DNA of 64,000 bases from Fragilaria crotonensis. Its lineage: Eukaryota > Bacillariophyta > Fragilariophyceae > Fragilariales > Fragilariaceae. The stretch covers positions 81,047 to 145,046 of the forward strand of contig JAKSYS010000070.1 in the NCBI GenBank assembly GCA_022925895.1, written 5' to 3'. The notes under the pieces are model-generated. The model saw only the letters and a list, made by a program, of their open reading frames with translations. It ran no database searches and was not told the origin of the DNA. This document shows, piece by piece, positions 41,084 to 64,000 of the stretch; positions within the stretch are counted from its first letter, which is position 1; the number at the start of each line of letters is the position of its first letter. A program made the position numbers and the translations under genes.

Positions 41084-41667
41084 TGTTCGAAAATGAACGT
41101 CTCTTTAAGACGAATCGACCCAAGCGCGAATTGTGGTGATGGTTGATGATCCCTGAGCTCTCGGGACTTGGCACCAAGCACTGCACCAAGATGTGCAGAT
41201 TCAAGACATGTCGGATTTATGACATACACAGTATGCGTACTACCTTGTACCCAGTACCCAGTACGATTGTAGTAGAGTAGTGCTAAAGTACCGGTAGTTC
41301 GTTGGCTTCAACGTGAATCGTGATTATGCATACTAGAGCGTGCATACAGTAGAAGAAGCAATTGAATATCCCATCTCCCAATCCAACACATCGCCAGTCC
41401 TTCGACGTACACCTGGTATGATCCGAAATCCAAAACCTCCTACTCGAGTACCTTGTACCATGTACACATGTAGCATATGTATATTCTGTTGTTTAGCATT
41501 TTTCTTGTCGTCAGTCGTCACATCTTGTCAAGAACGGGCGAGTACTGTACATCGCAAGCCGACGCCGCACACTGGAGATCGGAGGTACCATGTACCACAG
41601 ACCTATGATACCGTTACAAAGCTGACAGTACTTGTAGTGTGTCATCAGCGATCTACAGCACCTGTAC
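41084..41667. other. Intergenic, GTAC-rich, left flank of the Crypton array
   Basis: Contains GTACCTTGTACCATGTAC-like words and no supported gene. The sequence CCTGTACTAC directly before the array shares TAC with the junction sequence AATAC between units. Confidence 0.5.
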
Positions 41668-44292
41668 TACGAATGTATCCGGAATTCATGCGTCAAGGCA
41701 TACCACTTAATAGGGCGTCGTACGTGTGGGCTTTCGTATGTTAAAACTCTACCAGAAGATAGCGTACACACAATAAATGTACGTCGAAGTATGATGTTAC
41801 GTAAATACATTGCGAAAAACCCTCCGAGTCCAAAAAACCTCCGAGTCCAAAAAACCTCCGAGTCCGAAGCAAACCTATCATGTGCCGAGCTCATTGTTGC
41901 TGGGAGCTCTCCTAACTAAATTCGAAGATTGGGATTGAGATTCCCACTCCTTTTGTCCCTCCTAAGCCTATTAATAATGTCAGTCACACTCGTCTGCGGT
42001 CCGTATACGTTGTAGATCATGTCAATTGCCCTATGGGAAGTGTGGCCCAAGCTCACGAGATCACGAACCACATCCCAGATAACCTTCCTTCTGGTGTACT
42101 TGTACTTGACCCGTCCTCGCTCAGTTTCGGAGAACAGCCTTGCAGGCTTTCTCCCCCCGACTCCGTGTAGATATTCAGTCCACAAGTCGTAAAGACTTTT
42201 GGATTCGGCATCAGGGTGGCAGGATTCGTCATGGCAAGGGCAGGTGCAAGCAAGGCTCGCTCACCAGCAGCAACGTCATCTGCAGCAGTTCCTTCCCATT
42301 TTCAGCTCCATCGTTAGCATTAGTTGTTGTTGCCGTTGTCAATACTGCTCGTCGCGGGATGGCTGTAGAGCCATTCTTCTCATATTCCCATTCACAATTT
42401 GAAACCCTGCTCCATAGCCTGCATTATTCCAGCAATCTGCCCGGTTCCACATTCTCACGCCTCAAACTCATAAAGCCACTCTGCAATTGCAGCATCCAGT
42501 TCTGAAGTTTATCGCCACTGATTTGGTTGTTCTCCAGAATTCGCATGTTCAGACGTCGCGCATTGAGTCCTTGCAGTGCTCCTCCATTGTCATCCACATT
42601 GTTGTTATTAGCACCAGCAGCGAAACCGTCAAGATCCGGCAGCCTTGGAATTTCATCAATAAACACAGTGCCTTGGTTTCCACTGACAATGATTGGCACC
42701 TTCGCAATTGGATTCTGTCCATCAAGAATAACGGTTCCCGTATCGGCCAAATCCGCTTTCACACGATCGCGATCCGTTGCAGAAATGAAATCGCATGCAA
42801 CACTTGAATAAACAAGCCAAAGCACAGCCTTACCAAGCACAATTGCTGCCGATTCGGGAAGTAGTTGACGATATTTGGAACCACTTTTGTAAGAACAAAT
42901 GTTTTCAACGTGTTGAGTCGCACAAAGAGTTGTCGATCACATAATAGCAAGCCCCACCCATACACAACTTTTCCGCCACTTTGCAATCTGGGTACGGCAA
43001 CTCAACATCATCATAGCAATCTGAAACGCGACCCTTTCCTTTCCAATGGCCTCTGGTGTCCTTGTCGCCTTTTGAGATGCCACAGCGCCGAACATGCGTC
43101 GATGCAAATTTCCGAATACTGTGACTTCCCAATAGACCTCCCGCTTTGGAACTCTTGCAACTTTAAGACCTTCTGACCGAAGATGTTTTGTGCTGTCTCC
43201 TTAGCTTTTGTCCACCACCAGGAATTGTGATGTCGTCCGAAAAAGCAAATACATACGGCGAAGCCATCGCGATGCACTTGCTCGCAAGTTAGTTTCCAAC
43301 CACAATCCCAAACTAATATACACACAAAAAACAGGGTTCATACTTCCGAGGACAATCTGCCATGGCGCATCGCATTCATCTTGCACATTCTTGCTCCAAT
43401 TCAGGCGTTTTCAACGCATTCTTGAAATTGTCATGCACTCGAATGTGGTCCATAATTACCTGTGTTGTGTCGTCAATTCTAGCAATCATGTGAAATTGAA
43501 AGTTCATAAGTGCTGGCATTCCATACTTCCAAATTGCTGAAGTGTGAGGACCACCAAATGTCTTGAATACCCTCATGAAGGCTGAAATTCGTTTTCAACC
43601 ATCGGTCGCCTTGTTTGAGATGCTGCACCTTGTTTTCTCGCGCTTCTTTACATACCACGAAGTCATTAACCTCTGCACACTTTGTTGATTGCCATCGTTG
43701 CTCCCAGTCGCCAACCATGTAGACGATCAGGCATATGAAAGGAAATTGCCTTTTTCCAGAATGCAATGGTGTTCGCACGTACTGCTGGTCGAATCATTGT
43801 GTCGGTGCAGGATCAGGGACACTGAATGTTCGCATATTCAGCCAACAACAATTCTTCCGGTGTTACTTGCCTTTTCTCTGCCTCAGTATAAACACGGTTA
43901 TACTCATATTGCTGTCCGTCAAGCGATGGACACTGGACATCAAGCTGTCCAATATCCGTTTGTAAACCTTCTGACCTCTCATTGCTATTTGTGCATATGT
44001 GGCACGGAACAAACAGATCAAACATCGAAGTACTCGAAAAATTCCAACAGTTCATGTTGTTCTTTGGTACACATCCTACAGATAGTACGAGTGATGCCAG
44101 TGCCAAATTGAAGCAAATCGATCGGAATATCCAATCCTGCATGCGCGTACGCTGCATTCTGGATATTATTCCAATCCTGATACAGGCTACACAAATCTAC
44201 GTTCCAGATATTATACAGTACTACAGTATTAATTTTCTCGCCTTCACGAGTATCCACGCGTGCATACCACTTGGGTGGTATTTTCCAGATAA
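41668..44292 (-). mobile_element. Crypton-like tyrosine-recombinase element, unit 1 of a tandem array
   Basis: First of four head-to-tail units. It starts at TACGAATGTATCCGGAATTC (41,668) and the same sequence restarts at 44,293, so the period is 2,625 bp. No inverted or long terminal repeats are seen, as in Cryptons. The recombinase gene reads on the minus strand, and about 250 bp with a triple 17-bp repeat lie beyond its stop. The left junction with single-copy DNA shares only TAC with the inter-unit junctions. Confidence 0.75.
41821..41868. repeat. Triple 17-bp direct repeat at the unit end
   Basis: CCTCCGAGTCCAAAAAA occurs three times in tandem (the last copy diverges after CCTCCGAGTCC). 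The same triple lies in units 2 (about 44,445-44,492), 3 (about 47,100-47,146) and 4 (about 49,731-49,778), always beyond the recombinase stop codon and near the unit boundary. It could be a recombinase-binding site or a termination signal. Confidence 0.85.
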
Positions 44293-44314
44293 TACGAATG
44301 TATCCGGAATTCAT
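41916..44314 (-). pseudogene. Tyrosine recombinase (Crypton-like), unit 1, frames interrupted
   Basis: Minus strand; the most upstream Met (44,314, MNSGYIRIIW) lies in unit 2, 22 nt across the junction, and reads without break to about 44,018, through LLQFGTGITRTICRM. The remainder is in pieces: the recombinase core, a coiled-coil stretch (LQSGFMSLRRENVE) and a C-terminal basic domain (KYTRRKVIWDVVRDLVSLGH to RLRRDKRSGNLNPNL) ending at TAG 41,916. The catalytic set is deduced from all units: Arg in IARIDDTTQ, His-x-x-Arg in GSHSIRKFASTH, and Tyr in VSDCYDDVELPYPD. It would cut and rejoin DNA at short sites. Several one-base indels relative to the sister units break the frame. Confidence 0.75.
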
Positions 44315-46947
44315 GCGTCAAGGCATACCACTTAATAGGGCGTCGTACGTGTGGGCTTTCGTATGTTAAAACTCTACCAGAAGATAGCGTACACACAATA
44401 AATGTACGTCGAAGTATGATGTTACGTAAATACATTGCGAAAAACCCTCTGAGTCCAAAAAACCTCCGAGTCCAAAAAACCTCCGAGTCCGAAGCAAACC
44501 TATCATGTGCCGAGCTCATTGTTGCTGGGAGCTCTCCTAACTAAATTCGAAGATTGGGATTGAGATTCCCACTCCTTTTGTCCCTCCTAAGCCTATTAAT
44601 AATGTCAGTCACACTCGTCTGCGGTCCGTATACGTTGTAGATCATGTCAATTGCCCTATGGGAAGTGTGGCCCAAGCTCACGAGATCACGAACCACATCC
44701 CAGATAACCTTCCTTCTGGTGTACTTGTACTTGACCCGTCCTCGCTCAGTTTCGGAGAACAGCCTTGCAGGCTTTCTCCCCCCGACTCCGTGTAGATATT
44801 CAGTCCACAAGTCGTAAAGACTTTTGGATTCGGCATCAGGGTGGCAGGATTCGTCATGGCAAGGGCAGGTGCAAGCAAGGCTCGTTCACCAGCAGCAACG
44901 TCATCTGCAGCAGTTCCTTCCCCATTTTCAGCTCCATCGTTAGCATTAGTTGTTGTTGCCGTTGTCAATACTGCTCGTCGTCGGGATGGCTGTAGAGCCA
45001 TTCTTCTCATATTCCCATTCACAATTTGAAAACCCCGCTCCATAGCCTGCATTATTCCAGCAATCTCGCTCCGAAGTTCCACATTCTCACGCCTCAAACT
45101 CATAAAGCCACTCTGCAATTGCAGCATCCAGTTCTGAAGTTTATCGCCACTGATTTGGTTGTTCTCCAGAATTCGCATGTTCAGACGTCGCGCATTGAGT
45201 CCTTGCAGTGCTCCTCCATTGTCATCCACATTGTTGTTATTAGCACCAGCAGCAAAACCGTCAGATCCGGCAGCCTTGGAATTTCATCAATAAACACAGT
45301 GCCTTGGTTTCCACTGACAATGATTGGCACCTTCGCAATGGATTCTGTCCATCAAGAATAACGGTTCCCGTATCGGCCAAATCCGCTTTCACACGATCGC
45401 GATCCGTTGCAGAAATGAAATCGCATGCAACACTTGAATAAACAAGCCAAAGCACAGCCTTACCAAGCACAATTGCTGCCGATTCGGGAAGTCGTTGACG
45501 TATATTTGGAACCACTTTTGTAAGAACAAATGTTTTCAACGTGTTAGAGTCGCACAAAGAGTTGTCGATCACATAATAGCAAGCCCCACCCATACACAAC
45601 TTTTCCGCCACTTTGCAATCTGGGTACGGCAACTCAACATCATCATAGCAATCTGAAACGCGACCCTTTCCTTTCCAATGGCCTCTGGTGTCCTTGTCGT
45701 CTTTTGAGATGCCACAGCGCCGAACATGCGTCGATGCAAATTTCCGAATACTGTGACTTCCCAATAGACCTCCCGTTTGGAACTCTTGCAACTTTAAGAC
45801 CTTCTGACCGAAGATGTTTTGTGCTGTCTCCTTAGCTTTTTGTCCACCACCAGGAATTGTGATGTCGTCCGAAAAAGCAAATACATACGGCGAAGCCATC
45901 GCCGATGCACTTGCTCGCAAGTTAGTTTCCAACCACAATCCCAAACTAATATACACACAAAAAAACAGGGTTCATACTTCCGAGGACAATCTGCCATGGC
46001 GCATCGCGTTCATCTTGCACATTCTTGCTCCAATTCAGGCGAGTTTTCAACGCATTCTCGAAATTGTCATGCACTCGAATGTGGTCCATAATTACCTGTG
46101 TTGTGTCGTCAATTCTAGCAATCATGTGAAATTGAAAGTTCATAAGTGCTGGCATTCCATACTTCCAAATCGCTGAACTGTGAGGACCACCAAATGTCTT
46201 GAATACCTCATGAAGGCGTCGAAATTCGTTTCAACCATCGGTCGTCTTGTTTGAGATGCTGCACCTTGTTTTCGCTTCCAGCTTCTTTACATACTTCACG
46301 AAGTCATTAACCTCTGCACACTTTGTTGGATTGCCATCGTTGCTCCCAGTACGCCAACCATGTAGACGATCAGGCATATGAAAGGAAATTGCCTTTTTCC
46401 AGAATGCAATGGTGTTCGCACGTACCAAGGGTTGAATCATTGTGTCGGGTGCAGGATCAGGGACACCGAATGTTCGCATATTCAGCCAACGCAACAATTC
46501 TTCCGGTGTTACTTGCCTTTTCTCTGCCTCAGTATAAACACGGTTATACTCATATTGCTGTCCGGGCCCCAAGCGATGGACACTGGACATCAAGCTGTCC
46601 AATATCCGTTTGTAAACCTTCTGACCTCTCATTGCTATTTGTGCATATGTGGCACGGAACAAACAGATCAAACATCGAAGTACTCCGAAAAATTCCAACA
46701 GTTCATGTTGTTCTTTTTTGGTACACATCCTACAGATAGTACGAGTGATGCCAGTGCCAAATTGAAGCAAATCGGGATCGGAATATCCAATCCTGCATGC
46801 GCGTACGTTGCATTCTGATATTATTCCAATCCTGATACAGGCTACACAAATCTACGTTCCAGATATTATACAGTACTACAGTATTAATTTTCTCGCCTTC
46901 ACGAGTATCCACGCGTGCATACCACTTGGGTGGTATTTTCCAGATAA
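44293..46947 (-). mobile_element. Crypton-like element, unit 2
   Basis: Same organisation as unit 1; period 2,655 bp to the next TACGAATG at 46,948. It differs from unit 1 by scattered one- or two-base indels and some substitutions. Confidence 0.75.
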
Positions 46948-46969
46948 TACGAATGTATCCGGAATTCAT
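44541..46969 (-). pseudogene. Tyrosine recombinase (Crypton-like), unit 2, frames interrupted
   Basis: The minus-strand gene begins at Met 46,969 inside unit 3 and ends at TAG 44,541. This copy shows the catalytic core best. The frame 45,956-45,261 contains YVFAFSDDITIPGGGQKA, the H-x-x-R box GSHSIRKFASTHVRRCG (about 45,768-45,722), WKGKGRVSDCYDDVEL with the Tyr nucleophile, and a Cys pair in EKLCMGGACYY. Upstream, 46,770-46,231 covers the N-terminal domain (EEQLLRWLN-type start VTPEELLRWLN; KKAISFHMPDRLHGW). Breaks at about 46,230, 45,340 and 45,270 separate the frames. The downstream frame 45,229-44,678 holds the coiled coil. Confidence 0.75.
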
Positions 46970-49577
46970 GCGTCAAGGCATACCACTTAATAGGGCGTCG
47001 TACGTGTGGGCTTTCGTATGTTAAAACTCTACCAGAAGATAGCGTACACACAATAAATGTACGTCGAAGTATGATGTTACGTAAATACATTGCGAAAAAC
47101 CCTCCGAGTCAAAAACCTCCGAGTCCAAAAAACCTCCGAGTCCGAAGCAAACCTATCATGTGCGAGCTCATTGTTGCTGGAGCTCTCCTAACTAAATTCG
47201 AAGATTGGGATTGAGATTCCCACTCCTTTGTCCCTCCTAAGCCTATTAATAATGTCAGTCACACTCGCCTGCGGTCCGTATACGTTGTAGATCATGTCAA
47301 TTGCCCTATGGGAAGTGTGGCCCAAGCTCGAGATCACGAACCACATCCCAGATAACCTTCCTTCTGGTGTACTTGTACTTGACCCGTCCTCGCCAGTTTC
47401 GAGAACAGCCTTGCAGGCTTTCTCCCCGACTCGTGTAGATATTCAGTCCACAAGTCGTAAAGACTTTTGGATTCGGCATCAGGGTGGCAGGATTCGTCAT
47501 GGCAAGGGCAGGTGCAAGCAAGGCTCGCTCACCAGCAACGTCATCAGTTCCTTCCCCATTTTCAGCTCCATCGTTAGCATTAGTTGTTGTTGCTGTTGTC
47601 AATACTGCTCGTCGTCGGGATGGCTGTAGAGCCATTCTTCTCATATTCCCATTCACAATTTGAAAACCCCGCTCCATAGCCTGCATTATTCCAGCAATCT
47701 CGCTCCGTTCCACATTCTCATGCCTCAAACTCATAAAGCCACTCTGCAATTGCAGCATCCAGTTCTGAAGTTTATCGCCACTGATTTGGTTGTTCTCCAG
47801 AATTCGCATGTTCAGACGTCGCGCATTGAGTCCTTGCAGTGCTCCTCCATTGTCATCCACATTGTTGTTATTAGCACCAGCAGCGAAACCGTCAAGATCC
47901 GGCAGCCTTGAATTTCATCAATAAACACAGTGCCTTGGTTTCCACTGACAATGATTGGCACCTTCGCAATTGGATTCTGTCCATCAAGAATAACGGTTCC
48001 CGTATCGGCCAAATCCGCTTTCACACGATCGCGATCCGTTGCAGAAATGAAATCGCATGCAACACTTGAATAAACAAGCCAAAGCACAGCCTTACCAAGC
48101 ACAATTGCTGCCGATTCGAAGTCGTTGACGTATATTTGGAACCACTTTGTAAGAACAAATGTTTTCAACGTGTTAGAGTCGCACAAAGAGTTGTCGATCA
48201 CATAATAGCAAGCCCCACCCATACACAACTTTTCCGCCACTTTGCAATCTGGGTACGGCAACTCAACATCATCATAGCAATCTGAAACGCGACCCTTTCC
48301 TTTCCAATGGCCTCTGGTGTCCTTGTCGTTTTTGAGATGCCACAGCGCCAACATGCGTCGATGCAAATTTCCGAATACTGTGACTTCCCAATAGACCTCC
48401 TGTTTGGAACTCTTGCAACTTTAAGACCTTCTGACCGAAGATGTTTTGTGCTGTCTCCTTAGCTTTTTGTCCACCACCAGGAATTGTGATGTCGTCCGAA
48501 AAAGCAAATACATACGGCAAAGCCATCGCCGATGCACTTGCTCGCAAGTTAGTTTCCAACCACAATCCCAAACTAATATACACACAAAAAAACAGGGTTC
48601 ATACTTCCGAGGACAATCTGCCATGGCGCATCGCGTTCATCTTGCACATTCTTGCTCCAATTCAGGCGAGTTTTCAACGCATTCTTGAAATTGTCATGCA
48701 CTCGAATGTGGTCCATAATTACCTGTGTTGTGTCGTCAATTCTAGCAATCATGTGAAATTGAAAGTTCATAAGTGCTGGCATTCCATACTTCCAAATTGC
48801 TGAAGTGTGAGGACCACCAAATGTCTTGAATACCTCATGAAGGCGTCGAAATTCGTTTTCAACCATCGGTCGTCTTGTTTGAGATGCTGCACCTTGTTTT
48901 CTCGCTTCCAGCTTCTTTACATACTTCACGAAGTCATTAACCTCTGCACACTTTGTTGGATTGCCATCGTTGCTCCCAGTACGCCAACCATGTAGACGAT
49001 CAGGCATATGAAAGGAAATTGCCTTTTTCCAGAATGCAATGGTGTTCGCACGTACCAAGGGTCGAATCATTGTGTCGGGTGCAGGATCAGGGACACCGAA
49101 TGTTTGCATATTCAGCCAACGCAACAATTCTTCCGGTGTTACTTGCCTTTTCTCTGCCTCAGTATAAACACGGTTATACTCATATTGCTGTCCGGGCCCC
49201 AAGCGATGGACACTGGACATCAAGCTGTCCAATATCCGTTTGTAAACCTTCTGACCTCTCATTGCTATTTGTGCATATGTGGCACGGAACAAACAGATCA
49301 AACATCGAAGTACTCCGAAAAATTCCAACAGTTCATGTTGTTCTTTTTTGGTACACATCCTACAGATAGTACGAGTGATGCCAGTGCCAAATTGAAGCAA
49401 ATCGGGATCGGAATATCCAATCCTGCATGCGCGTACGTTGCATTCTGATATTATTCCAATCCTGATACAGGCTACACAAATCTACGTTCCAGATATTATA
49501 CAGTACTACAGTATTAATTTTCTCGCCTTCACGAGTATCCACGCGTGCATACCACTTGGGTGGTATTTTCCAGATAA
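46948..49577 (-). mobile_element. Crypton-like element, unit 3
   Basis: Period 2,630 bp to TACGAATG at 49,578. It carries many small deletions relative to units 1 and 2 near 47,100-47,560 (for example CAAGCTCGAG for CAAGCTCACGAG). Confidence 0.75.
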
Positions 49578-49599
49578 TACGAATGTATCCGGAATTCAT
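47192..49599 (-). pseudogene. Tyrosine recombinase (Crypton-like), unit 3, frames interrupted
   Basis: Starts at Met 49,599 in unit 4 and stops at TAG 47,192. It contains the longest single recombinase frame of the array, 49,400-48,573 (275 aa). That frame spans the N-terminal domain, the MIARIDDTTQVIMDH box with the first catalytic Arg (about 48,750), and the LNWSKNVQDERDAPWQIVLG strand-turn that may hold the Lys. The H-x-x-R and Tyr boxes follow in frames 48,583-48,272 and 48,366-47,812. The C-terminal part is the most indel-ridden of the array. Confidence 0.75.
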
Positions 49600-49929
49600 G
49601 CGTCAAGGCATACCACTTAATAGGGCGTCGTACGTGTGGGCTTTCGTATGTTAAACTCAACCAGAAGATAGCGTACACACAATAAATGTACGTCGAAGTA
49701 TGATGTTACGTAAATACATTGCGAAAAACCCTCCGAGTCCAAAAAACCTCCGAGTCCAAAAAACCTCCGAGTCCGAAGCAAACCTATCATGTGCCGAGCT
49801 CATTGTTGCTGGGAGCTCTCCTAACTAAATTCGAAGATTGGGATTGAGATTCCCACTCCTTTTGTCCCTCCTAAGCCTATTAATAATGTCAGTCACACTC
49901 GTCTGCGGTCCGTATACGTTGTAGATCAT
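49578..49929 (-). mobile_element. Crypton-like element, unit 4, left part (split by the 11.8-kb transposon)
   Basis: The first 352 bp of unit 4, identical in layout to units 1-3 up to GTATACGTTGTAGATCAT. It encodes only the last 34 or so codons of the recombinase (stop TAG at 49,825). The unit resumes at 61,775 (ATGTCAATTGCCC). The intact sequence GATCATGTCAATT in units 1-3 is the empty site. Confidence 0.85.
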
Positions 49930-50310
49930 CATCTAAGGGTGCCAAAACCAAGTCGGCTCTTGGATATGAAAAACCAATTATCTTTGATATGAGAATTTTT
50001 TGTTCATAATTTTTACCTAAAATATAGGTAAAAACTTAGGACTAAAGAGCTTGTACATCATGTGTATGAAGCGGGTTTCCTCGTATTCCTGAACTCTGAA
50101 ATTTATGTTTCCTGAACTTTTTCATCTCTTGCATAGGAGCTCATACTTTGCATTCCTGAGCTCCAAAATTTCAATTCCTGAATTTCACTGACTCATTTTA
50201 CTAACACTCGGGTGGGATTCCTGAACTCTTGGACTCTAAATATATGAACTATACCACTTCTTCATTTGTGATCATGAATTTCAATTCCTGAATTAGATAT
50301 TCGAAAAGAA
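49930..50310. repeat. Left terminal and subterminal repeats of the transposon
   Basis: TIR at 49,930-49,948. TTCCTGAA/G occurs at 50,086, 50,109, 50,153, 50,175, 50,218 and 50,285, irregularly spaced. Such clusters near TIRs are typical transposase-binding sites in CACTA-like and related elements. Confidence 0.8.
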
Positions 50311-50489
50311 GAAGTTTGCTGTGTAGTGTGTATGAAGTAATCACCTCAGTAGTTCTGAGCTGACATTGTTCATATAATAGATGTTATTGTCGCTCATTTT
50401 AACTTTTGTTGGAGATTAGTTTTAATTGTGCCTATTCGTGTGGCTTTGATGAACCATTCTACTATTCATTACTAAGTGTCTGATCTATT

Positions 50490-52168
50490 CTAAACTGCCT
50501 CCACTTTCAATTCACTGTAGACAAGTTCAGGAGCAAGATGACTGGAGTAGTTATCATCCTCCTCATCAGAGTCCTCGTCAAATACATCAATGCACTTGTG
50601 TGGGCGTTTCTTACCCTTGTCATCAAATTGTTTCCTGACCCCGGCCAGACTCCTTTTCCTTCTGGACAGAAACATTTTAAGTAGTTCCTGGTTGAATGTT
50701 GGGGTGGTTGATTTCTTTCTATCATTCTTGATGGCCATGTATAATTCATCGTATTTCCTCATTCCCACCTGTGACCAACCACAGCCTCCCCCATTATCAT
50801 GAGCACCCTTGTTCCTGGAGAATGTGTAAAGTGGTGGCTGCCGAACATGGTATTGCAAAGATTGGTCAGAAGTTAGGATGTGGTTTTTTCATTTCATTTA
50901 GTATCATAGTGTAACTTACGGGTAGGTTGTTGTTGTCCTCATCAGTCCATGTACCAATTCGCTGTTTCCAACAAGTGATAACAAAACAAGTCAGTTTCTT
51001 GTTGTTTGTTCTGTGACAAACCATTCGGATAAACTTACCATTTTCTCTGTCTTAACTAATTCCGCGAACCACCTCTTCCCATAGTTGATCAGGCACAGCA
51101 AAATGAATGCTTCATCACTTATGGACAGGATTTTCTTGCTCCATACTTTTCTGTCAGTTGTTGCACAGTGGTTCTCCATGTTGATAGTGTTATTCCACTT
51201 GCTGCTGCCGACAATGCATGGGGCATAGGTGTCTATGATTTGGGCATAGTAGCAGATATTATCCCTCATCTTGAGGAGGTAACTGGTTTCTTCCTCGCTT
51301 CCACTGTATAGGCTGTGTTCATACGTTCCTAAATTGGAAGTGAATCCCTCTGGATGCAAGGTGTTTGATGTTGAATGCAAGTGAGTGTGAGTATGCTCGG
51401 GCTTTGGCAAAGTACACTCACTTCAATTCCTCACCTTTGAATTTCGTTTGCATGTTTTTTATTGCATTGTTCCGAAGATCAGTGTGTGTTTTTACAACTA
51501 TTCTCCGCATCCCAAGCCACCAGTTTTCGGTTCCTCGAATGTTTGTGTGCTTCATGATAAAGCCACAAAGTGTTTTCTCATCTTCACTGAAATGAGAATG
51601 ATAGTCTTTTTTGATAGAACTTCCAAATAGAGAACACGTGTTTTTTGATGCAAGTCTTGATCACACTGATTTGATTCTCTTCTGTATTTTCCGTCATGCT
51701 CATGTCCACTATGCTGCTTAGCCCTGGAACCGATGATGTTAGTTGGCTGTCACTTGATTTCCCGACTTTAATAGTTGAAGGTAGGGATGGTGGATTTCCG
51801 TATGCATGCTTCTGTCCTAGTTTTGCATCCATTTTCCGTGGCACTTCTTCCTCCTCCTCCTCCTCGTTGTCACTTTGAATCAGATCATTGGGATCTGTGG
51901 TCACTCGTTTCACGCCTCTTATGAAGTCTCTCCTTTGTTTCCTAGAGCTGGGCTTTAAGGCAGTCATGCCTGCTGCTGTTTGGTGTGCCATTGATGCCAT
52001 GGTTGTATTTGTGGTGCTTCCTTGTTGTGTGAAAAACTTTCCGATTGTGCGCCAAATTTTGAACACTGAAAATCCTGTTTGTGGGATAGTCTTTTTTGCC
52101 ACCATTTGAATTTCATACCAAGTACCGAGTTGGTATGTAGGTTCTACACATTCATGCAGGGTTTTCAA
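50490..52168 (-). CDS. Transposon gene A: accessory protein, multi-exon, unknown function
   Basis: Minus-strand coding blocks at 52,168-51,584, about 51,600-51,420, 51,410-50,991 and 50,858-50,490 read as one gene broken by probable introns. For example, an acceptor TTTCAG lies before GAAGATGAGAAAACAC near 51,592, and a donor AAAG-GTGAGG near 51,432. Exact splice sites are not all resolved, so the coordinates are an envelope. The first block is acidic (DNEEEEEEEVPRK). The third has EAFILLCLINYGKRWFAEL. The last has GWSQVGMRKYDELYMAIKND, then a basic and acidic tail. The RKYDELYxxIKxDR block looks like a helical DNA- or protein-binding module; I recall similar proteins beside transposons in other stramenopiles but cannot name a family. 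Confidence 0.5.
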
Positions 52169-52359
52169 ATTTTGAATTCATACCACACCCCCCTTCATTC
52201 TTTACATACACCAAAAATGTACCGAAAAGTAAATGTACAATTTGAATGCACGCTTTCCCGAACTTCTGTTTAGTGAATCTGTGTCCTGTCAATTTCAACA
52301 CCTCATTTTCACTTCACTCGTCCTCTTCAAAACCCTTTCTTCAAAACCTTCTCTTCAAA

Positions 52360-54880
52360 ATGTTGTCCTCGTCTGCTTCCTCAAAGGCACCCCTGCTCTT
52401 CTGTCAAAACCCCTTCTGCCTGAATTTCAACAAGAAACCCTTTTCCAATCAAGCAGCATATACACAGCATATTGATAGAAACATCGGGTGTTATAATTTC
52501 ATTGTGAAGAAATCACACCATGCAGCAACACATGGGGCTTCTGCTTCACACCGTCGCCGTCTTCATGAGGATGGGAATATCACATGCACAAGTAACAAGA
52601 GGCCTGCCCTTTTAAGGCGACATATGGTGAATGATCCCCACATGGATTTTGATGGCACAGACAACCTTCTGCAGTTTCCGGCTGGCAATGGTGTGGAAGT
52701 TGAAAGCACTTCTTGTGAGGACATCGAGGACTGCAACAAAAGTGATGATTTGTCCATGTTAAGTGATGACCCAAACATTCTTACCTGTACGAATTCTGCA
52801 CTTGATGAAGATGTGGAAGCCCCATCATTTCGTTCAAACTTCATGTATACTACCGATCAGAAGTGGACTGTTTCTCTCCTCAAAATCCTGGACCATGCCA
52901 ATGCACCCGACTACACTTTTGGTCAAGTCCTGAGTGGGCACGCTCTGCATCTGCTGATAATTATTCTTACAACCCAGTGGGTGGACTCTCGTGCCAAAAT
53001 GTTGATGCCCTGATCAACTCAGTTCGTAATGGGAAAAGACTGCTTCCCTTTGTACGAAGAGTGGATGTACATCATGGCTCTCCATCAGATGTGATTTGTT
53101 TTGACTTCGCTTCACAGTTGCTAAGTTTGCTGCAAAATCCAAGCATTATGACTGCAGAAAACCTTGCCATCGATATCAATGATCCCCTGAAGCCCTACCA
53201 CAAATTGAAAGGCAGCAATGTTTTGGGTGAGGCACTGTCCGGAGTGTCTATCGCAAGGCGTATGATCGATTAATCACAGATCCTCAGAAGCAATTGTTTG
53301 TTCCAATCATCCAATGGATTGATCGTACCTCTGTAACAGGGAATGATCGCTTTTCACTTAAACCCTACATGTTCACTCCAGCCATTTTTACAGAAAAATT
53401 CAGAAGGAGTATCAAGGCATGGGGCTATCATGGCTTTCTCCCAAAGAGGAAGTCCTCATCAGCTCAGAAGCAGACACTTCGTATGGGCGATGCCATTCGT
53501 ATCTATCATAAGGAGCTGGATGCTGTATTGGAGACCTTTCGGAAATGTTCACCACAACTGTGTGGTGTTCATTTGGTCCAAAGGGTAGAATCTGTGTCGA
53601 CATTGTCACATGTGTGTTGTTCATCATTCAAGATATGCAAGAAGGAGATATGCTGTGTGGTCGGTATGGTGTTCACACCAGTGGAATCCAACGCCCTCAT
53701 CGGTGCTGTGATGTCAATTATGATGATCTGAAGAACTGTGATGTCCATTGCAAATACCTGGTAGCCTCGGATATGGGTTTCATTGCCAGGAGTAATGATG
53801 ATGATCTCAGGAAACGATGGTCTCAACATAAACTTGAAAATGCATTTGAACACATTGCCTTTGCTGACCCTGAGCGTGGAATCTTTGGGGCCACTCCTGT
53901 GGAGACAATGCATGCATTTCGGAAAGGTGTCATCGAGAAAGTAACAAAACTTATATTGGACAGTCTTCCAGCATCCAAGAAGGCTGCCTTTGATGACCTT
54001 GCAATAGCATTTCACAAGTCTCATCGCCAAACCTACCGAAAGGAGTATCCATCAACAGATTTCAGCAATGGGGTAACAAATTTGACAAAGATAACTGCAT
54101 CAGAACGCGTTGGCCTCGTTTTTGTTTGTCATCCTCTTCCAATATGAAGCAGGATGGCAAATGATCCAAACATGTCTTGAGAAAAGAACAACTAAGAAGG
54201 TTCCTGAGGTCCTTGAAGTACTTGAATCTCTCCTTTGTTTCGATGCTTGGCTAAACCAGAGTCATTACTGGGAGACTACAAATCCAGCACATGTTGCAAA
54301 TGAAATGAAGAAACATCAGGATTCCATTCGCAATTTCATGGATATGTGCAAACAGTCCATTCCCTTGAAAGTTGAGGGAAAGGAGGATGACAAGAAAAAG
54401 GGTAAGAAAAAGGGAACCATCATAAGGAAGGAAGGACAGAAAAGCAATGCCGAGGATGCATGGAAGTTTCGAAATTCCATGAGTTGTTACACATTGTGGA
54501 TGATATGTCTCGGTTTGGCTCTCCAGTGAACTTTTGTGCACAGCGTCCAGAATCACTTCTAATTCCTGCTGCAAAGCACCCTGGGAGACGGGCACAGAAG
54601 CGAATTGAGGGTTCTGCATATGAACTTCAGGCAGCCCAACGTTTAATGTACTCCTTCATGATCGACACCATACACGCGCATATGGGAGCAACCAGATGGT
54701 GATGCTGATGTACCCGACAGCCACCATGATGATGAAACAACAAGGAATGGAATCTTTCAGAGCACCGGACAAGCAACATTTGGCTGTGTTTATCGATTCA
54801 AATCGAGTAAACAAATTCAGTACAAAATTGAATGGGACACCAGAACTCACCGTGATTTACTTGCTCTTCCCTGGAGTTGA
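52360..54880 (+). CDS. Transposon gene B: zinc-finger transposase-like protein, about 840 aa, with one-base frame breaks
   Basis: Starts at ATG 52,360 with a zinc-finger-like motif (CQNPFCLNFNKKPFSNQAAY followed by QHIDRNIGC). Then come APSFRSNFMYTT, the block EWARSASADNYSYNPVGG, WIDRTSVTGNDRFSLKPYMF, a central core (RICVDIVTCVLFIIQDMQEG; ATPVETMHAFRKGVIEKVT) and SKFHELLHIVDDMSRFGSP, to a stop at 54,878-54,880. Frame changes occur near 52,932, 53,242, 53,573, 54,121, 54,468 and 54,670, each explained by one base; three lie in T-runs. No intron is needed. Overall architecture (N-terminal finger, long core rich in Asp, HELLHIVDD near the C-terminus) resembles Plavaka/Tnp2-type transposases, but the catalytic DDE residues could not be assigned by eye. 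It probably cuts and inserts this element. Confidence 0.6.
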
Positions 54881-55444
54881 TTGAGTTTCTTTGATTCCTT
54901 TAAGGAATCCGACTCAATAACATTTTGTACTGAATACAAACGAGATGTCCACACCTTTCGATGTCATCCCTGCTATCAGTCCGATGGTCCCATACATGAC
55001 TGGATGATAATTGACTTTGGGAACATGGGAAGTTTCCTGTCGTTTGGCTCTTGTAGTTGTTGTTGACTCACCCGGGATCCGGACGAGAGATACCAACTGG
55101 TTGTTCAATCAACAACAGAAGAAATTAAAGAACACGAGTCAACACTGTTGAGGGAGTGGAAGTGGTCTCCAACATACCACCTTGTCTCTGGAAACACTGT
55201 CGTGGCCCCTTGTTTTGTTATATCCATCTCACACAACAGTTCCACAGTTCTTGAGACAAAACCATATACAGAGTGGGCATCCAAATTCGCTTAGCTAGCT
55301 TGTTGCATCAAAGTACCTAAAGGAAACATGTTGCCATCGTCTGTCCGAGCCCTCACAATCTTTGGACCATCACCATCGGCTCGCTTTCGCTTGTTTGAAT
55401 CTACCCAAAGAGTAAAACTTGCCTTCCTGTTGATGTCTGGGCCA

Positions 55445-58400
55445 TCATAAAAAAGAGAGTTGCCTTCGAAAGCTCACAAACTCATTCTTCACAGTTGAGG
55501 TTGAGCAGCAATAATCCAAGGCCTCCTTGCAGAGAGGAATTGCAACCACTTCATTTGCATCATACACATACCCACTGTGAATGGTAACTGCATGTGAACC
55601 ATTTCCATCGGATTCATTGAGCACAGCCAATACCATTGTGTCCTTCATTTGTTCTTGAAGGAGTTGCCAATCAAACATGTGTGGTCTCTTCAGAACTTGT
55701 CGGGTGATCCATGTAGGCAGCTGAGTTTCAGCAAACTGTCCCACCTTTCGAATGGCATCAACAGTACCTCCTCTTAGGTGACTTTCACCAAAATGGTTAA
55801 TGGATTTGGCAGCATTATCAAATCCAATTGCATATAAAGCACTGGCCAATGACTTTGAAACACAAAGATCTTCACCTTCGGATTGTACAAAGTGGACCTG
55901 GGGTGCTTCAGGAACCTGCAGCTTGGGATATTCATGCAAATGTGATTCTTTGAAATCGCCCACTGGTATGTCAACAAATCCACACCTCATACGCTTGACC
56001 TCCTCCAAGAATCCTGTCTTAAATTGTTTCACAAAGTCTTCATCAGTTCGAATGGGCTGTGTTTCTCCATGAAAGATGACCTCCCAGTAACCAGGGGCCT
56101 GTATCTGCTTCATATGTTTACCCCTGGTGAGTCACTGTTGCTCCTTAAGGACCTTTTCGACTGAGGATCAAACACCCATTGTGTCTGTGGGGGACGTATC
56201 GCAGCTTATGTACCTTTAGTATGAATGAGGATGGTTTCCTTCAGGAACAGGTACAAATCCATCCGTGTTTCCAACGTTAATGACATGTTGGATTACCCTT
56301 TTGCATAATCGGCATCCTTGATCCAGTCTTTGGAAACAGCAATTTTTTCTTCCTTCTTTTCCAACTTTCCTTCTTTTGTCTTAACATTGTAAACCAAAAG
56401 TGCAACAAAGGTATCTTCACGTGGGTTGTACTTGAGGCCATGCACCATGGCCTCAGTGCCAAATGTCCATTCCAATTCAAATGCCCTTTGAATTTCTTCC
56501 TTTCCTTCTTCATAAACTTTATTTCTTTCGTGTACTGCTCTCTGTAATCATCCTTTGTCTTTTTCTTCTTACATCCATCAATTTTTCTTTGCATCTCGGC
56601 CCTTCTTTTCACATTCTTCATGTGATCTTTGGTAGAGCTCCAACCCCAGTACAAAAATCTGTCCTCCACGAATTTGTTCATTGCTGCTTCATCCCTAAGA
56701 AGCACTGGTCGATCTTCACCGTCATCTCCTTTCTTTCGCCACTTTTTTCTAAATTTCTCAACTTCATTGTCTGATACCAATGTTTTGTACCTACTTTCTC
56801 CGAAAGGTAATTTCGGGCATTCATCAGGTACATGAATGTCTCCATAACCATACGTACGAGGAGGCCCACCTTTCCATACCCTGCTTGCTCGGGGAAGCTT
56901 AGCAGGATCATTCCACCAGGCTTCGTTGAGATCAATATCTTCTTCCTGTTGTTCAGGTCCATCAGCAGATCCAGATGGTTTGAAATCGGCAACATCCTCC
57001 TCTGATGGCAAACTCCGTTCATTGGCATTTGGCAAAACATCCTCCCTGGAAGAAACATCCTCCAACGTAACACTGTCGTCCTCTGTGGCATTGGATGGTA
57101 CTGGCACCCAGGGCCACGTGAAAGTCTGAAGTTCCAACTTCAGACTTCCGTAACAGGGATCCATCAAATGATTTGAATTCTGACGTTTTGGGACTGTGAC
57201 GTGTTGAAATTCTGCAATGCGATCAAACAGCAAAAACCACTGTGCTTTCATCGCATGCAAGTAGGAAATGGAAGCCGAATCATCCCTTTTAAACAGTTTT
57301 GTGAATATTCCCTGTGGAAAACAGCAAATGTGCTCCTTCGATTTCACATCAGTTGACATCTGGATTTCCATGCGATCGCGTCTAAACATTTCGTTGTACG
57401 CTGCAACTCCATCTTGAGTCCCAATGATATCTCGGAGAATTATTGCAATTGCAGCTATAATCCCAATCCCACAGCTATGGCCATCTTCTTGCAGGGAAGA
57501 ACATCATTATCCAACACCCTCAATGCAGGGAATGTATTGGTGCCCTTCATTTGCCCAAAAGGTTCGTCCGAACGGACTGAGCCACTTCATCTTGTTTGGA
57601 GTGCTGCTATCATTTGCACTGTTTTTCCTTTGCTCCTGGTAACTGAAGGCAAGGTTCAGGAACCAGACAACACCGACATTGTTTGGAATTTTCTCGTGCC
57701 GGAGGGATGAAGACTGCAATAGCGAAAAACATGTCCGGAGGCATGATACATCATCCGTGGCAGCCACAACGTCTCCAGCATTGAAAACAAATGTTGCCCC
57801 CAATGATCGTTGAGATTCGTGAGGAAACACAATCAACCTTTTCTGCAGAAGCCCTGGATAGAACAACAGGACTTCCTTCACAACACGATTCATTTGGTCA
57901 TCATACTTCTGGTAAAGTTCTTCCTTAGAACTTCCATACCTTTTTTCACAAGGGCAAGACATTCTGCATGATCGGCTCCATTGGCTACCATCAAGTCGTT
58001 TCGTACTTCTTTGCAGATAGATGACGTTGAAGACGCAAAGCAACCTTGAATTACCTGCATGTCGTCAAAAGACAGGATTGCAACTGATGTGTGATACCTG
58101 CCATCCCTCATGAGGAGTGAAGTCATCATTTGCAGCTCACGGGTGGCCATCCAAGTTTTCCCACCACTTTTGCTATGATCAAGCCTTTCCTGTGATCCCA
58201 TTTCTCCAAAACCACGCAACTGGTCAGGCAGAACCAGGTCACCAAATGGTGGTGGAAGAAGGTTGTTCAAATAGTCCAGACCGGTAAATGCCTCTTCCAG
58301 ATCTGCATTTGTCAGCAATGCTCCACTTGCAACATCATCTTGGAGATCGATTGTTGATGAAGGGTATTGGCACCATACAAATGTTTTTCTGGTGTTGCTA

Positions 58401-59711
58401 CCATCATTCCGTGCACTGACTGTCTCATTGTTGCTCTGCACAATCTCCAAAACATCACTGCTCACGAGGGAAGGGGAACCACCACTCGATTTTGCGACTA
58501 TATTGATCTTGCTTTCTTCCTCTGACTCAACAACAGCACGCGGGAACCATCATTTCTTGTTGCACTGATCACATCACTGTTGCTTTCAACAACCTCGACA
58601 GCAGCACTGTTAGCAGCACTGTTCAAAAGGGAACCGGAAGAAAGTTTCATCAGAGGGATAATGCAGTGCTCCTCAGACTCTGGTACAATCCATGCAAATC
58701 CACCTGTGGTCTCGTCCATTAAGGTGTCGGCAATTGTCTTGGGAAGAAACTCAATGCCAGTTGTGTCTTGGAGATTGATTTGACGGAACCCACAGGCTTG
58801 GTAGAATTCCTTTGGCTCGTCATGGGGACACTGCAAGTAGATGTCCACACCATGTAGGCTCTCCTGACATTGTGACAGCTCACGGTGAGACAATAATAAA
58901 AAAGTTGAATGCTTGATGAGCATTACTAACATCAGACGTCCAAACCCTTGCCGTCTCCAGGATGTAAGACCGGATGGCTTCCGTGATTCAGATTCTGCAA
59001 TCAACAGCCAAAGCACCAACGACGCACCAACTTCATCTCCAATTCCACTTGAAATGTAATGCATGCAATAACAACAGAGTCTTGGCACCCTATGACAGAT
59101 TTCTTGAAGGGGTCATCTTCTTTCAAGAGGACGTCCCACAATCATTATTGATGGATCAGAATTCACAGCACGATCGATAGAGCTCAAATCAGCTTCTGTA
59201 GAATTGAATGATGTGCTGTAGAATTGCCTTGCAGCTTCTGTCGCCCACTTAAACCTTGTCGCCTCAGCTTTGTTTGTTTGGACACGTGTGGGGTACAACG
59301 TAACTACCTTGAATTGCCAAATTTCATTGGAGTCCTCTCTTTCGTTCTGAGTCATAATCTTGGACAACGGGAGGTCTTGAAACCAAGAGCTGAACATGTG
59401 TAGTGGAAACTCTGAAACAGCACGAGCGGGTGATGATAAAAGACTCGAACTTGCGATCTGAATTGTTTATTGACCTTTGTTCCTGGAGGTGGTGTGAATT
59501 CATCCATACCATCACGGAACAGGTACGCCTTATCCATAGGGACTCCTCCTTGCTGACGAGACAGGGGACAGTGATGGAACCTCTGCCATTTTGTTGGTTG
59601 AAATATGAATAATCCTCCAACTGGTGTGCGTGTATACAACTCTTGAGCATGCGAACAGACAACTGACAAAAGAACCAATACCGGTAGATCAATCTGGTTT
59701 GATTCACTCAA
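55445..59711 (-). CDS. Transposon gene C: large protein with GNAT acetyltransferase-like and cysteine-peptidase-like parts
   Basis: A chain of minus-strand frames, probably one or two genes broken by indels and/or introns: 59,711-59,113, 59,088-58,498, 58,465-57,890, 58,043-57,507, 57,389-56,277 and 56,113-55,445. The second has a GNAT signature, WRRQGFGRLMLVMLIK (acetyl-CoA P-loop) and EFYQACGFRQIN. Two segments, VESNSDVISATRNDGS and VQSNNETVSARNDGS, look like an internal duplication. The fifth is very basic and acidic (KKKKTKDDYREQYTKEIKFM). The last has a Cys-His-Asp order (EDLCVSKSLASALY; GSHAVTIHSGYVYDANE; ALDYCCS) typical of papain-fold peptidases. The 5' end is unclear: no ATG begins the first frame, and an acceptor-like CATCTAG lies just upstream. 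Function in transposition is unknown. Confidence 0.5.
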
Positions 59712-61564
59712 ATCAATGAGAATCTCTCGCAGATGACCGAATATTGGATTCTAGATGACAGATTGCCTTACAAACTCAATCGAAGCACGCACACAAGACG
59801 AAGTACTTATTCCCTCAATTAACAACAAAATGAGAAGCACAACACTTGTCGACAAGGATCCTAATTATGAAAGGAGAAGAAGAGGAGGATGTGAGATTGA
59901 AAGCTGGAAAATACAATCATGTGCAATGACACAACGTCAACAAGAAAGACTGGAGTACAGTACCAGCACAATGTTGTACGGAAGCCTCCAAGGTACTGTC
60001 GTGGTGCGAACTCGTCCCAGTACTTGACAGTACCATGAGTACAGTACGTGACAATGGTACAGGCACAACAGGAGTACCTCAACAAATCAATCAGTTGCTC
60101 ACAATGATGGAAACGACGATTCAACACAACATTCTTGTGTTGATAGGACAAAACAATCAAAAACTCACGAACAAGAACGACAGTTAAGTGCCCTTGTTAG
60201 TGGAAAGGAAGAAGAAGCAAAGGGCAAAGGGACAAGCACAGAATGAAACATTCAATGCGGTGTTGGGCATGACACCAAGTTGTGACATCGACAACCGTAC
60301 AGCAGGCACAAGGTAGTATTGTAATAAACGTGGCGTCCACCAAGGTACTGTCATACTCCCAGTACTTGATAGCAACATGAGTACAGTACGTAGACAACAG
60401 TACATGCACAAGGTAGTGTTGTACCGTAGCCTCAAAGGTACTGTCGTATTCCCAGTACTTGGCAGTACCATAAGTACGGTACGTAGACCACGGTACAGGC
60501 GCGACGTAGTGTATTACCGTAGCCTCCAAGGTACTGTCGTACTCCCAGTACTTGGCAGCACCCTAAGTACGGTAGGTAGACGACTGTACAGGCGCGACGT
60601 AGTGTATCACCGTAACCTCAAGGTACTGTCGTGCGAACTCGTCCCAGTACTTGACTGCACCCTGAGCACCGTACGTAGACAACGGTACTGGCACAACGGG
60701 AGTACCTCAAAACTCATTCGACCATCACCATGATGGAAACATTCAATCAACACAACAATCAACACGAAAAAAAGCACATTTGCAGTCTTACCACTTAAGA
60801 CTGCAATGTCTTGTGGGTGGGAAAGGACGAAGAAGGAGCGAAGATGCCAAATAATGGAGCATCAATGTGGTGTCGGGCATGACACCAAGTGGTGGAGTGC
60901 TCAACGAACGAAGTGTGAGATGTGACACTTCCCGCAAAAAAAATCACGTACGATTCTACTAAAGACAATACTGTGGCTGAAAAAGAATTAATTCCTTGTA
61001 GAAATATACAGCATGCACTGGTATTGGTGCCAAAGAATTAATCAGTACATACTATCGCCTACAATTCTACGGTTTGTTGTTGAAAACACAAGATCACGTA
61101 GTACGTAGCATAGTGTCATAGGAGTACTCGCATGATACAATACTGTACTAAAATTATACGCTACCACCATACCGTAGTACACAAAACACAGCGCTATAGT
61201 AATGAAAGTACCGTACACAGTACCACACTACCATACACACAGACCACGCCGTAGCTACCATACTGTACACCACCGCACCATACTAAACGTACTGTAGCAG
61301 GCACCGAACACCATGCACCATGCACCAGACACGCCCATAGCTACTTGTACAACGTACAATGTACAGCGTATAACCAACAACGAACCATTGCGCTAGTACG
61401 ACGGTAGTATCCCAGCTGACAGCACTGTAAAAACCGCTGTATACTGTACACTGTACGGCACAACCAATAGTCCACCCACGATACACCATGCTACTCCAGT
61501 ATTTCGTACAAAACACGTACAGTACTCGGTGTTTTATGTGCATCGAAATAATGAAGAAAAAAGC
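59712..61564. repeat. Transposon right arm: non-coding, 93-bp minisatellite and GTAC-rich DNA
   Basis: A 93-bp unit (GGTACTGTC ... CCAGTACTTG ... GTACGTAGAC) begins at 60,344, 60,437, 60,530 and 60,622, plus a detached copy at 59,992. Copies differ by a few bases. From about 61,080 to 61,540 the DNA is TACTGTAC/ACCATAC-rich. No gene supported. Confidence 0.75.
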
Positions 61565-61774
61565 TCAGGAATAATACTGCAGTAGTTCAGGAGCAAAAAA
61601 AATTCTTCATAAAAATGAGGAAACAGCAAATGTCGGAATCCTGAACTAAATAAATAAACCAGAAAAAAACTTCAGGAATCCTGAACTAAATATGGGAATC
61701 CTGAAATTTTTCCAATAAATATGATAAAAAATTCTTGTATCAACTATGGTACTTAGTTTTGGCACCCTTAGATG
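61565..61774. repeat. Right terminal and subterminal repeats of the transposon
   Basis: The TIR occupies 61,756-61,774 as the reverse complement of the left end. Subterminal words CTCAGGAA (61,564), TTCAGGAG (61,586), the palindrome TTCAGGAATCCTGAA (61,671-61,685) and two further ATCCTGAA copies (61,638 and 61,698) mirror the left-arm motifs. Confidence 0.85.
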
Positions 61775-64000
61775 ATGTCAATTGCCCTATGGGAAGTGTG
61801 GCCCAAGCTCACGAGATCACGAACCACATCCCAGATAACCTTCCTTCTGGTGTACTTGTACTTGACCCGTCCTCGCTCAGTTTCGGAGAACAGCCTTGCA
61901 GGCTTTCTCCCCCCGACTTCGTGTAGATATTCAGTCCACAAGTCGTAAAGACTTTGGATTCGGCATCAGGGTGGCAGGATTCGTCATGGCAAGGGCAGGT
62001 GCAAGCAAGGCTTCGTTCACCAGCAGCAACGTCATCTGCAGCAGTTCCTTCCCATTTTCAGCTCCATCGTTAGCATTAGTTGTTGTGCCGTTGTCAATAC
62101 TGCTCGTCGTCGGGATGGCTGTAGAGCCATTCTTCTCATATTCCCATTCACAATTTGAAAACCCGCTCCATAGCCTGCATTATTCCAGCAATCTCGCTCC
62201 GAAGTTCCACATTCTCACGCCTCAAACTCATAAAGCCACTCTGCAATTTGCAGCATCCAGTTCTGAAGTTTATCGCCACTGATTTGGTTGTTCTCCAGAA
62301 TCGCATGTTCAGGCGTCGCATTGAGTCCTTGCAGTGCTCCTCCATTGTCATCCACATTGTTGTTATTAGCACCAGCAGCGAAACCGTCAAGATCCGGCAG
62401 CCTTGAATTTCATCAATAAACACAGTGCCTTGGTTTCCACTGACAATGATTGGCACCTTCGCAATTGGATTCTGTCCATCAAGAATAACGGTTCCCGTAT
62501 CGGCCAAATCCGCTTTCACACGATCGCGATCCGTTGCAGAAATGAAATCGCATGCAACACTTGAATAAACAAGCCAAAGCACAGCCTTACCAAGCACAAT
62601 TTTGCCGATTCAGGAAGTCGTTGACGTATTTGGAACCACTTTTGTAAGAACAAATGTTTTCAACGTGTTAGAGTCGCACAAAGAGTTGTCGATCACATAA
62701 TAGCAAGCCCACCCATACAACTTTTCCGCCACTTTGCAATCTGGGTACGGCAACTCAACATCATCATAGCAATCTGAAGCGCGACCCTTTCCTTTCCAAT
62801 GGCCTCTGGTGTCCTTGTCGTCTTTTGAGATGCCACAGCGCCGAACATGCGTCGATGCAAATTTCCGAATACTGTGACTTCCCAATAGACCTCCCGTTTG
62901 GAACTCTTGCAACTTTAAGACCTTCTGACCGAAGATGTTTGTGCTGTCTCCTTAGCTTTTTGTCCACCACCAGGAATTGTGATGTCGTCCGAAAAGCAAA
63001 TACATACGGCGAAGCCATCGCGATGCACTTGCTCGCAAGTTAGTTTCCAACCACAATCCCAAACTAATATACACACAAAAAACGGGGTTCATACTTCCGA
63101 GGACAATCTGCCATGGCGCATCAGCGTTCATCTTGCACATTCTTGCTCCAATTCAGGCGAGTTTTCAACGCATTCTTGAAATTGTCATGCACTCGAATGT
63201 GGTCCATAATTACCTGTGTTGTGTCGTCAATTCTAGCAATCATGTGAAATTGAAAGTTCATAAGTGCTGGCATTCCATACTTCCAAATTGCTGAAGTGTG
63301 AGGACCGCAAATGTCTTGAATACCTCATGAAGGCGTCGAAATTCGTTTTCAACCATCGGTCGTCTTGTTTGAGATGCTGCACCTTGTTTTCTCGCTTCCA
63401 GCTTCTTTACATACTTCACGGTCATTAACCTCTGCACACTTTGTTGGATTGCCATCGTTGCTCCCAGTGCGCCAACCATGTGAAACGATCAGGCATATGA
63501 AAGGAAATGCCTTTTCCAGAATGCAATGGTGTTCGCACGTACCAAGGGTCGAATCATTGTGTCGGGTGCAGGATCAGGGACACCGAATGTTCGCATATTC
63601 AGCCAACGCAACAATTCTTCCGGTGTTACTTGCCTTTTCTCTGCCTCAGTATAAACACGGTTATACTCATATTGCTGTCCGGGCCCCAAGCGATGGACAC
63701 TGGACATCAAGCTGTCCAATATCCGTTTGTAAACCTTCTGACCTCTCATTGCTATTTGTGCATATGTGGCACGGAACAAACAGATCAAACATCGAAGTAC
63801 TCCGAAAAATTCCAACAGTTCATGTTGTTCTTTTTGGTACATCCTACAGATAGTACGAGTGATGCCAGTGCCAAATTGAAGCAAATCGGGATCGGAATAT
63901 CCAATCCTGCATGCGCGTACGTTGCATTCTATATCCAATCCTGATACAGGCTACACAAATCTACGTTCCAGATATTATACAGTACTACAGTATTAATTTT
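61775..64000 (-). pseudogene. Crypton-like unit 4, right part: recombinase gene cut by transposon and window edge
   Basis: Resumes unit 4 at ATGTCAATTGCCC and runs to the window end, about 80 bp short of the next expected boundary. The minus-strand frames repeat the recombinase order: 63,938-63,489 N-terminal domain, about 63,250 IARIDDTTQ-equivalent, 62,912-62,610 GSHSIRKFASTHVRRCG and Tyr box, 62,597-62,148 coiled-coil part. The last 34 codons are separated by 11.8 kb of transposon (see 49,578-49,929), so this copy cannot make a full product. One-base indels relative to the other units also break it. Confidence 0.75.

Follow-up and report, generated by a model that had tools for sequence, protein, structure and literature searches.

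A probable cut-and-paste DNA transposon of the Plavaka lineage in the diatom Fragilaria crotonensis, with a GNAT-like and Ulp1-like protein encoded beside its transposase

To which lineage of DNA transposons does the insertion at positions 49930 to 61774 of this stretch of the Fragilaria crotonensis genome belong, and what are its genes for? The stretch, referred to below as the window, covers 64,000 nucleotides of contig JAKSYS010000070.1 (positions 81,047 to 145,046, forward strand; assembly GCA_022925895.1). A preliminary description, made from the sequence alone, had proposed a DNA transposon with three gene blocks that matched no superfamily known to it and carried an acetyltransferase as cargo. 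We read the element as a DNA transposon of autonomous type that probably moves by cut and paste, and we assign it to Plavaka, a named lineage whose clade also includes EnSpm/CACTA, Mirage, Chapaev, and Transib. The three blocks, here called gene A, gene B, and gene C, were found on the -, +, and - strands, respectively, and the transposase, GNAT-like, and peptidase-like domains proposed for them were supported (Table 1).

The assignment is carried by gene B, which encodes the transposase. The PF18759 transposase domain serves as the definition of Plavaka (PMC8290104). In Pfam, this domain was matched above its cut-off of 26.3 by a window fragment (28.4 bits), as well as by P0010 (42.7 bits), a relative that is 96% identical to gene B and maps to 52378-55291 of the window. 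Gene B thus belongs to a named lineage and is not unplaced, as had first been thought. In an alignment of 32 of the 122 transposases found (120 listed), gene B homologues exhibited a D-D-E with C(2)C- and H(3-4)H-type motifs, the candidate catalytic residues being D319, D425, and E732 in P0010 numbering. Residues H708, H712, and C450 (P0010 alignment) were present in all 32 proteins, and position 447 was occupied by C in 20, H in 5 (including the window family), S in 5, and I in 2. According to Kojima 2025 (PMC12730594), EnSpm, Mirage, Chapaev, Transib, and RAG1 share a clade with Plavaka, and the CMCT clade (EnSpm, Mirage, Chapaev, Transib, and Plavaka) has, between the second D and the last E, the motifs C(2)C and H(3-4)H. 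The transposon is very probably a Plavaka element.

A RAG1-like fold is very likely for the catalytic part of gene B. The preliminary description had suggested looking for an RNase H-like DDE core by structure prediction, and the AF2 model of P0010 residues 160-780 did match RAG1, amphioxus RAG-like, and Transib proteins, at about 10% identity; the comparison speaks for the protein families present in the lists compared. A search of PDB sequences with the transposase profile returned no matches. The model of the C-terminal part (residues 800-966) points to a BAH-like domain, which we consider probable; the region was covered in all 31 other aligned gene B homologues. Several of the BAH chains that it matched carry titles describing them as bound to methylated histone peptides.

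The ends of the element, which had been described as 19-bp inverted repeats with AT on both sides, proved exact to the base: the terminal inverted repeats (TIRs) of the window copy are perfect over 19 bp and AT abuts each of them. Among 39 distinct termini (40 rows, with one place read twice), all 19 bases were identical, including the outer CATC/GATG, while the two bases just beyond were variable; these termini were located with at most two mismatches in loci obtained by end probes, and were thereby selected for similar ends. This switch from constant CATC/GATG to variable neighbouring bases places the start of the element at the C. A matching 2-bp duplication was present in all nine copies with both flanks read (TA in 3, TG in 3, AT, GC, and CG in 1 each), for which the naive probability by chance is (1/16)^9.

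The window also holds the uninterrupted target. The element splits the fourth unit of a tandem array (41665-49521 and 49530-64000; units of about 2.63-2.65 kb, 96-98% alike), and at three places in the array (42019-42020, 44644-44645, and 47294-47295) the joined flanks continue with a single AT. The three empty sites previously noted in sister units are therefore real; the Crypton label given to these units was not confirmed by Pfam, which returned no recombinase match in the four frames tried. The subterminal repeats held up as well: TCCTGAA, a word picked after inspection of the sequence, occurs nine times in the outermost 350 bp of the two ends, where 5000 Markov shuffles gave 0.15 on average and never more than 3; five more lie in the inner 11.1 kb.

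Gene C encodes a single protein with GNAT-like and Ulp1-like domains, both of which were identified with high confidence, the latter being SENP-like. The window frame matched Acetyltransf_7 at E = 0.012, under the Pfam cut-off, and the gene C family profile matched Naa50 over 58 positions (E = 1.1e-4). The motif R/Q-x-x-G-x-G is characteristic of GNAT acetyltransferases, and it appears as RRNGIG in P0003 and as RRQGFG in the window gene C. The next domain has the fold of an Ulp1/SENP (C48) peptidase together with His, Gln, and Cys, which we take to be the C48 active-site residues. The C-terminal domain had no Pfam match; by motif reading, its Cys, His, and Asp motifs resemble a second cysteine peptidase. 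Gene C was found as a frame of 819 amino acids on contig C106 and as one uninterrupted frame of 1145 amino acids at locus L083. As read by eye, the stops of gene C and gene B overlap tail to tail.

Table 1. Features of the transposon in the window.
Feature	Position	Strand	Evidence
Whole transposon, 11,845 bp	49930..61774	+	TIRs, target-site duplication, three empty sites, full-length match to the C361 copy
Left target-site duplication, AT	49928..49929	.	Duplication pattern and empty sites
Right target-site duplication, AT	61775..61776	.	Duplication pattern and empty sites
Left TIR, 19 bp, 5'-CATCTAAGGG...	49930..49948	+	111 exact genome copies, reversed control 0
Right TIR, 19 bp	61756..61774	-	Inverted match of left TIR
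Left subterminal repeats, TCCTGAA core	50087..50292	+	Word count
Right subterminal repeats, TCCTGAA core, both orientations	61586..61705	+	Word count
Gene A region, accessory protein, exon structure not settled	50490..52177	-	Frame pieces 50490-50888, 50991-51422, 51584-52177
Gene B, Plavaka-type transposase, ~980 amino acids, several broken frames in assembly copy	52360..55294	+	PF18759; P0010 mapping
Predicted RAG1-like catalytic part of gene B, placed approximately from P0010 residues 160-780	52849..54696	+	AF2 model and structure comparison of relative P0010
Probable BAH-like domain at the C terminus of gene B, placed approximately from P0010 residues 800-966	54755..55250	+	Structure comparison of P0010
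Gene C, GNAT-like, Ulp1/SENP-like, and conserved C-terminal domains, 5' end approximate, several broken frames	55291..59780	-	tblastn of P0003, P0130, P0009, P0131 onto window
GNAT-like domain of gene C	58573..59112	-	Pfam and profile comparison
Ulp1/SENP-like domain of gene C	57111..58390	-	Peptidase-like fold and residues
Most conserved part of gene C, its C-terminal domain, 53% to P0003	55451..56062	-	tblastn
Right part, ~93-bp tandem repeats, no gene recognised	59955..60696	.	Sequence repeats

Together, this anatomy and a cut-and-paste mechanism make up a reading that we hold to be likely. The gene B product, as a DDE transposase, would bind the CATCTAAGGG ends, and probably also the TCCTGAA subterminal repeats, excise the element and insert it through a 2-bp staggered cut, a proposed catalysis of which the observed 2-bp duplications would be the trace. 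Judging from its fold, the BAH-like domain would probably anchor the transposase to nucleosomes that carry one particular histone mark. The gene C protein may deSUMOylate and acetylate silencing or transposition proteins, through which the element would escape host repression, and gene A may encode a conserved accessory protein that perhaps binds the ends. The anti-silencing role of gene C is proposed tentatively. More doubtful is the broader idea of a RAG1-fold lineage with its own chromatin kit, in which a BAH-like reader fused to the transposase and an acetyltransferase/deSUMOylase protein would jointly open silenced chromatin, as a diatom counterpart of the TET-bearing fungal Plavaka elements.

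At somewhat less than even chances, gene C and the BAH-like domain instead work within the transposition machinery, in the maturation, stability, or assembly of the transposase, and do not act on host silencing. Ulp1-type proteases can process proteins, and the fixed tail-to-tail arrangement of gene B and gene C is what would be expected of partners in one complex. The histone-peptide titles of the matched BAH chains argue against this explanation, as do the Arabidopsis Vandal elements, in which Ulp1 is tied to anti-silencing, although the same review states that what the Ulp1 domain itself does is unknown (PMC13317346).

The transposon has spread recently. The preliminary description had suggested the TIR as a probe for further copies with AT duplications; in the genome searched (62.1 Mb, 881 contigs), the exact 19-bp end occurred 111 times and its reversed control never, which rules out a single-copy oddity; AT was the duplication in one of the nine copies described above. 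Probes from the left and right ends gave at least 40 scored matches each, and 33 of the 40 left-probe matches listed were at 97% or higher. Among 100 of the 111 termini listed, at least 36 pairs were recognized: at least 15 of 11.8-12.6 kb, at least 13 of 6.69-6.88 kb, and at least 8 of other sizes. The right flanks of the C713 and C717 copies were identical, as were those of both C95 copies, so that some insertions were probably counted twice; these are probably allelic contigs or a segmental duplication.

The frames are broken in the window copy as well as in the family copies read, as they would be in a dead relic family with every copy frame-broken and movement ceased. We consider such a relic improbable. 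The window copy and the C361 copy are 98.9% identical end to end, with 42 substitutions and 48 indel events; 33 of these indels are of 1 bp and 27 of the 33 fall in homopolymers. Moreover, five copies (L042, L043, L045, L046, and L067) showed no substitution relative to C361 over 656-836 compared gene B codons, those close to breaks being masked, yet their frames break at different points. Given these two observations, we infer that the breaks are mostly assembly errors. The ratio of nonsynonymous to synonymous substitution (dN/dS) in gene B was below 1 where there were enough changes (0.21, 0.30, and 0.45 in the window family; 0.06, 0.18, and 0.22 in other lineages), with dN biased somewhat downward, since codons close to the breaks were masked according to their identity to P0010; in copies with fewer than 10 changes, the values were scattered from 0 to 1.4.

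The 6.7-kb class looks non-autonomous and is presumably moved in trans. The copy read (L085; G000:C563:19009-25766) has the same ends as the 11.8-kb element. It retains the right end, the left 2.3 kb with the gene A region (at 89% identity), about 0.8 kb of the start of gene B, and two weaker stretches of the right part, of which one reaches the beginning of gene C; gene B is otherwise mostly missing, and gene C almost entirely so. None of the 13 contigs bearing 6.69-6.88-kb pairs was among the genome matches of gene C, and similar short open frames were observed in the gene A region of many members.

Genome searches with pieces of gene B, GNAT, Ulp1, and gene A revealed many diverged families. 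We hand-picked 36 diverged transposases, mostly for a gene A or gene C match on the same contig, and the counts that follow describe arrangement and not frequency. Gene C was matched within 12 kb of 31 of them, always downstream and on the opposite strand (31 out of 31), with about 27-38% identity; on C9 and C584, this match lay only about 300 bp from the transposase, and five of the 36 had no gene C match within range. The three frame pieces of gene A had no Pfam match; its middle piece had 147 genome matches, some of them beside diverged transposases. In the window family, gene A is encoded ahead of gene B and on the other strand, whereas it lies beyond gene C in all 25 diverged copies that also have it; gene A has therefore changed sides. 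In addition, a gene C protein and a transposase are each assigned to an ENA contig 53,003 bases long, which suggests that the two are linked elsewhere as well. That the GNAT/Ulp1 gene was host cargo captured by chance in one family is thus very improbable, even though plant transposable elements do capture Ulp1 genes (PMC13317346): the constant position beside diverged transposases, the low identity of the pieces, and the long single frame at L083 all argue against it, and the term acetyltransferase cargo was abandoned. Across diverged families, transposase, putative histone reader, and putative SUMO/acetyl-modifying protein have remained together, a natural system in which to test how DNA transposons outside fungi and plants counter chromatin silencing.

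A scan of viral contigs returned no gene C relatives and a single locus with transposases, L084 (IMGVR_UViG_3300049043_000356). Besides a fragment of a Plavaka-like transposase, it contains a DDE_Tnp_1_7 transposase, with transposon DNA joined to genes of phage-like look (one frame scanned). It is probably a chimeric contig and was not used as evidence.

Two other superfamilies were ruled out by the ends. Zisupton has an 8-bp duplication and EnSpm/CACTA has CAC...GTG ends with a 3-bp duplication (PMC12730594); the 2-bp duplications in nine of nine copies exclude KDZ (Kyakuja, Dileera, and Zisupton), and these duplications together with the CATC ends exclude EnSpm/CACTA proper. A new superfamily unrelated to any named one, which the GNAT/SENP-like and BAH-like parts, the lack of a recognised TET gene, and the fifth terminal base (T, versus A printed for PlavakaB) might suggest, is given almost no weight in view of the PF18759 score, the 2-bp duplications, the CATC ends, and the D-D-E with its C and H motifs. 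For Plavaka, the element provides a well-defined gene set with precisely located ends in a diatom, and it adds predicted-structure support for placing the lineage beside RAG1/Transib.

Compared with known systems, the element resembles RAG1, amphioxus RAG-like, and Transib proteins in the predicted fold of its transposase, and the H-to-E spacing in gene B is 20, as in RAG1 H942/E962. RAG1/Transib-type duplications are of 5 bp; those here are of 2 bp, and identity is about 10%. No RAG2-like gene turned up, though no search was aimed at RAG2. The likeness to fungal PlavakaB lies in the PF18759 transposase, the 2-bp duplications, the CATC...GATG-type ends, and the D-D-E with C(2)C and H(3-4)H: duplications are of 2 bp in PlavakaA and 2-3 bp in PlavakaB, and PlavakaB ends in CATCA..TGATG, versus CATCT here, with the first four bases in agreement (PMC12730594). 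The exact insertion noted in the preliminary description is borne out, in a family of many copies, and the gene set of this family differs from that of the fungal elements as far as the available text describes them: TET genes are reported in some of these and none was recognised here, and the words Ulp1, acetyltransferase, BAH, protease, and diatom have no occurrences in that text (PMC12730594). A literature search, with subscription papers mostly outside it and so no proof of absence, returned no description of this gene set. Vandal/KIU MULEs (Ulp1, VANC) likewise encode an Ulp1 domain in anti-silencing proteins, but they belong to another transposase superfamily, and the word acetyltransferase does not appear in that review (PMC13317346). 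Finally, the oomycete CryptonF and CryptonS elements share an Ulp1-type C48 peptidase in a stramenopile transposon, with a tyrosine recombinase in place of the DDE transposase found here (PMC3212892).
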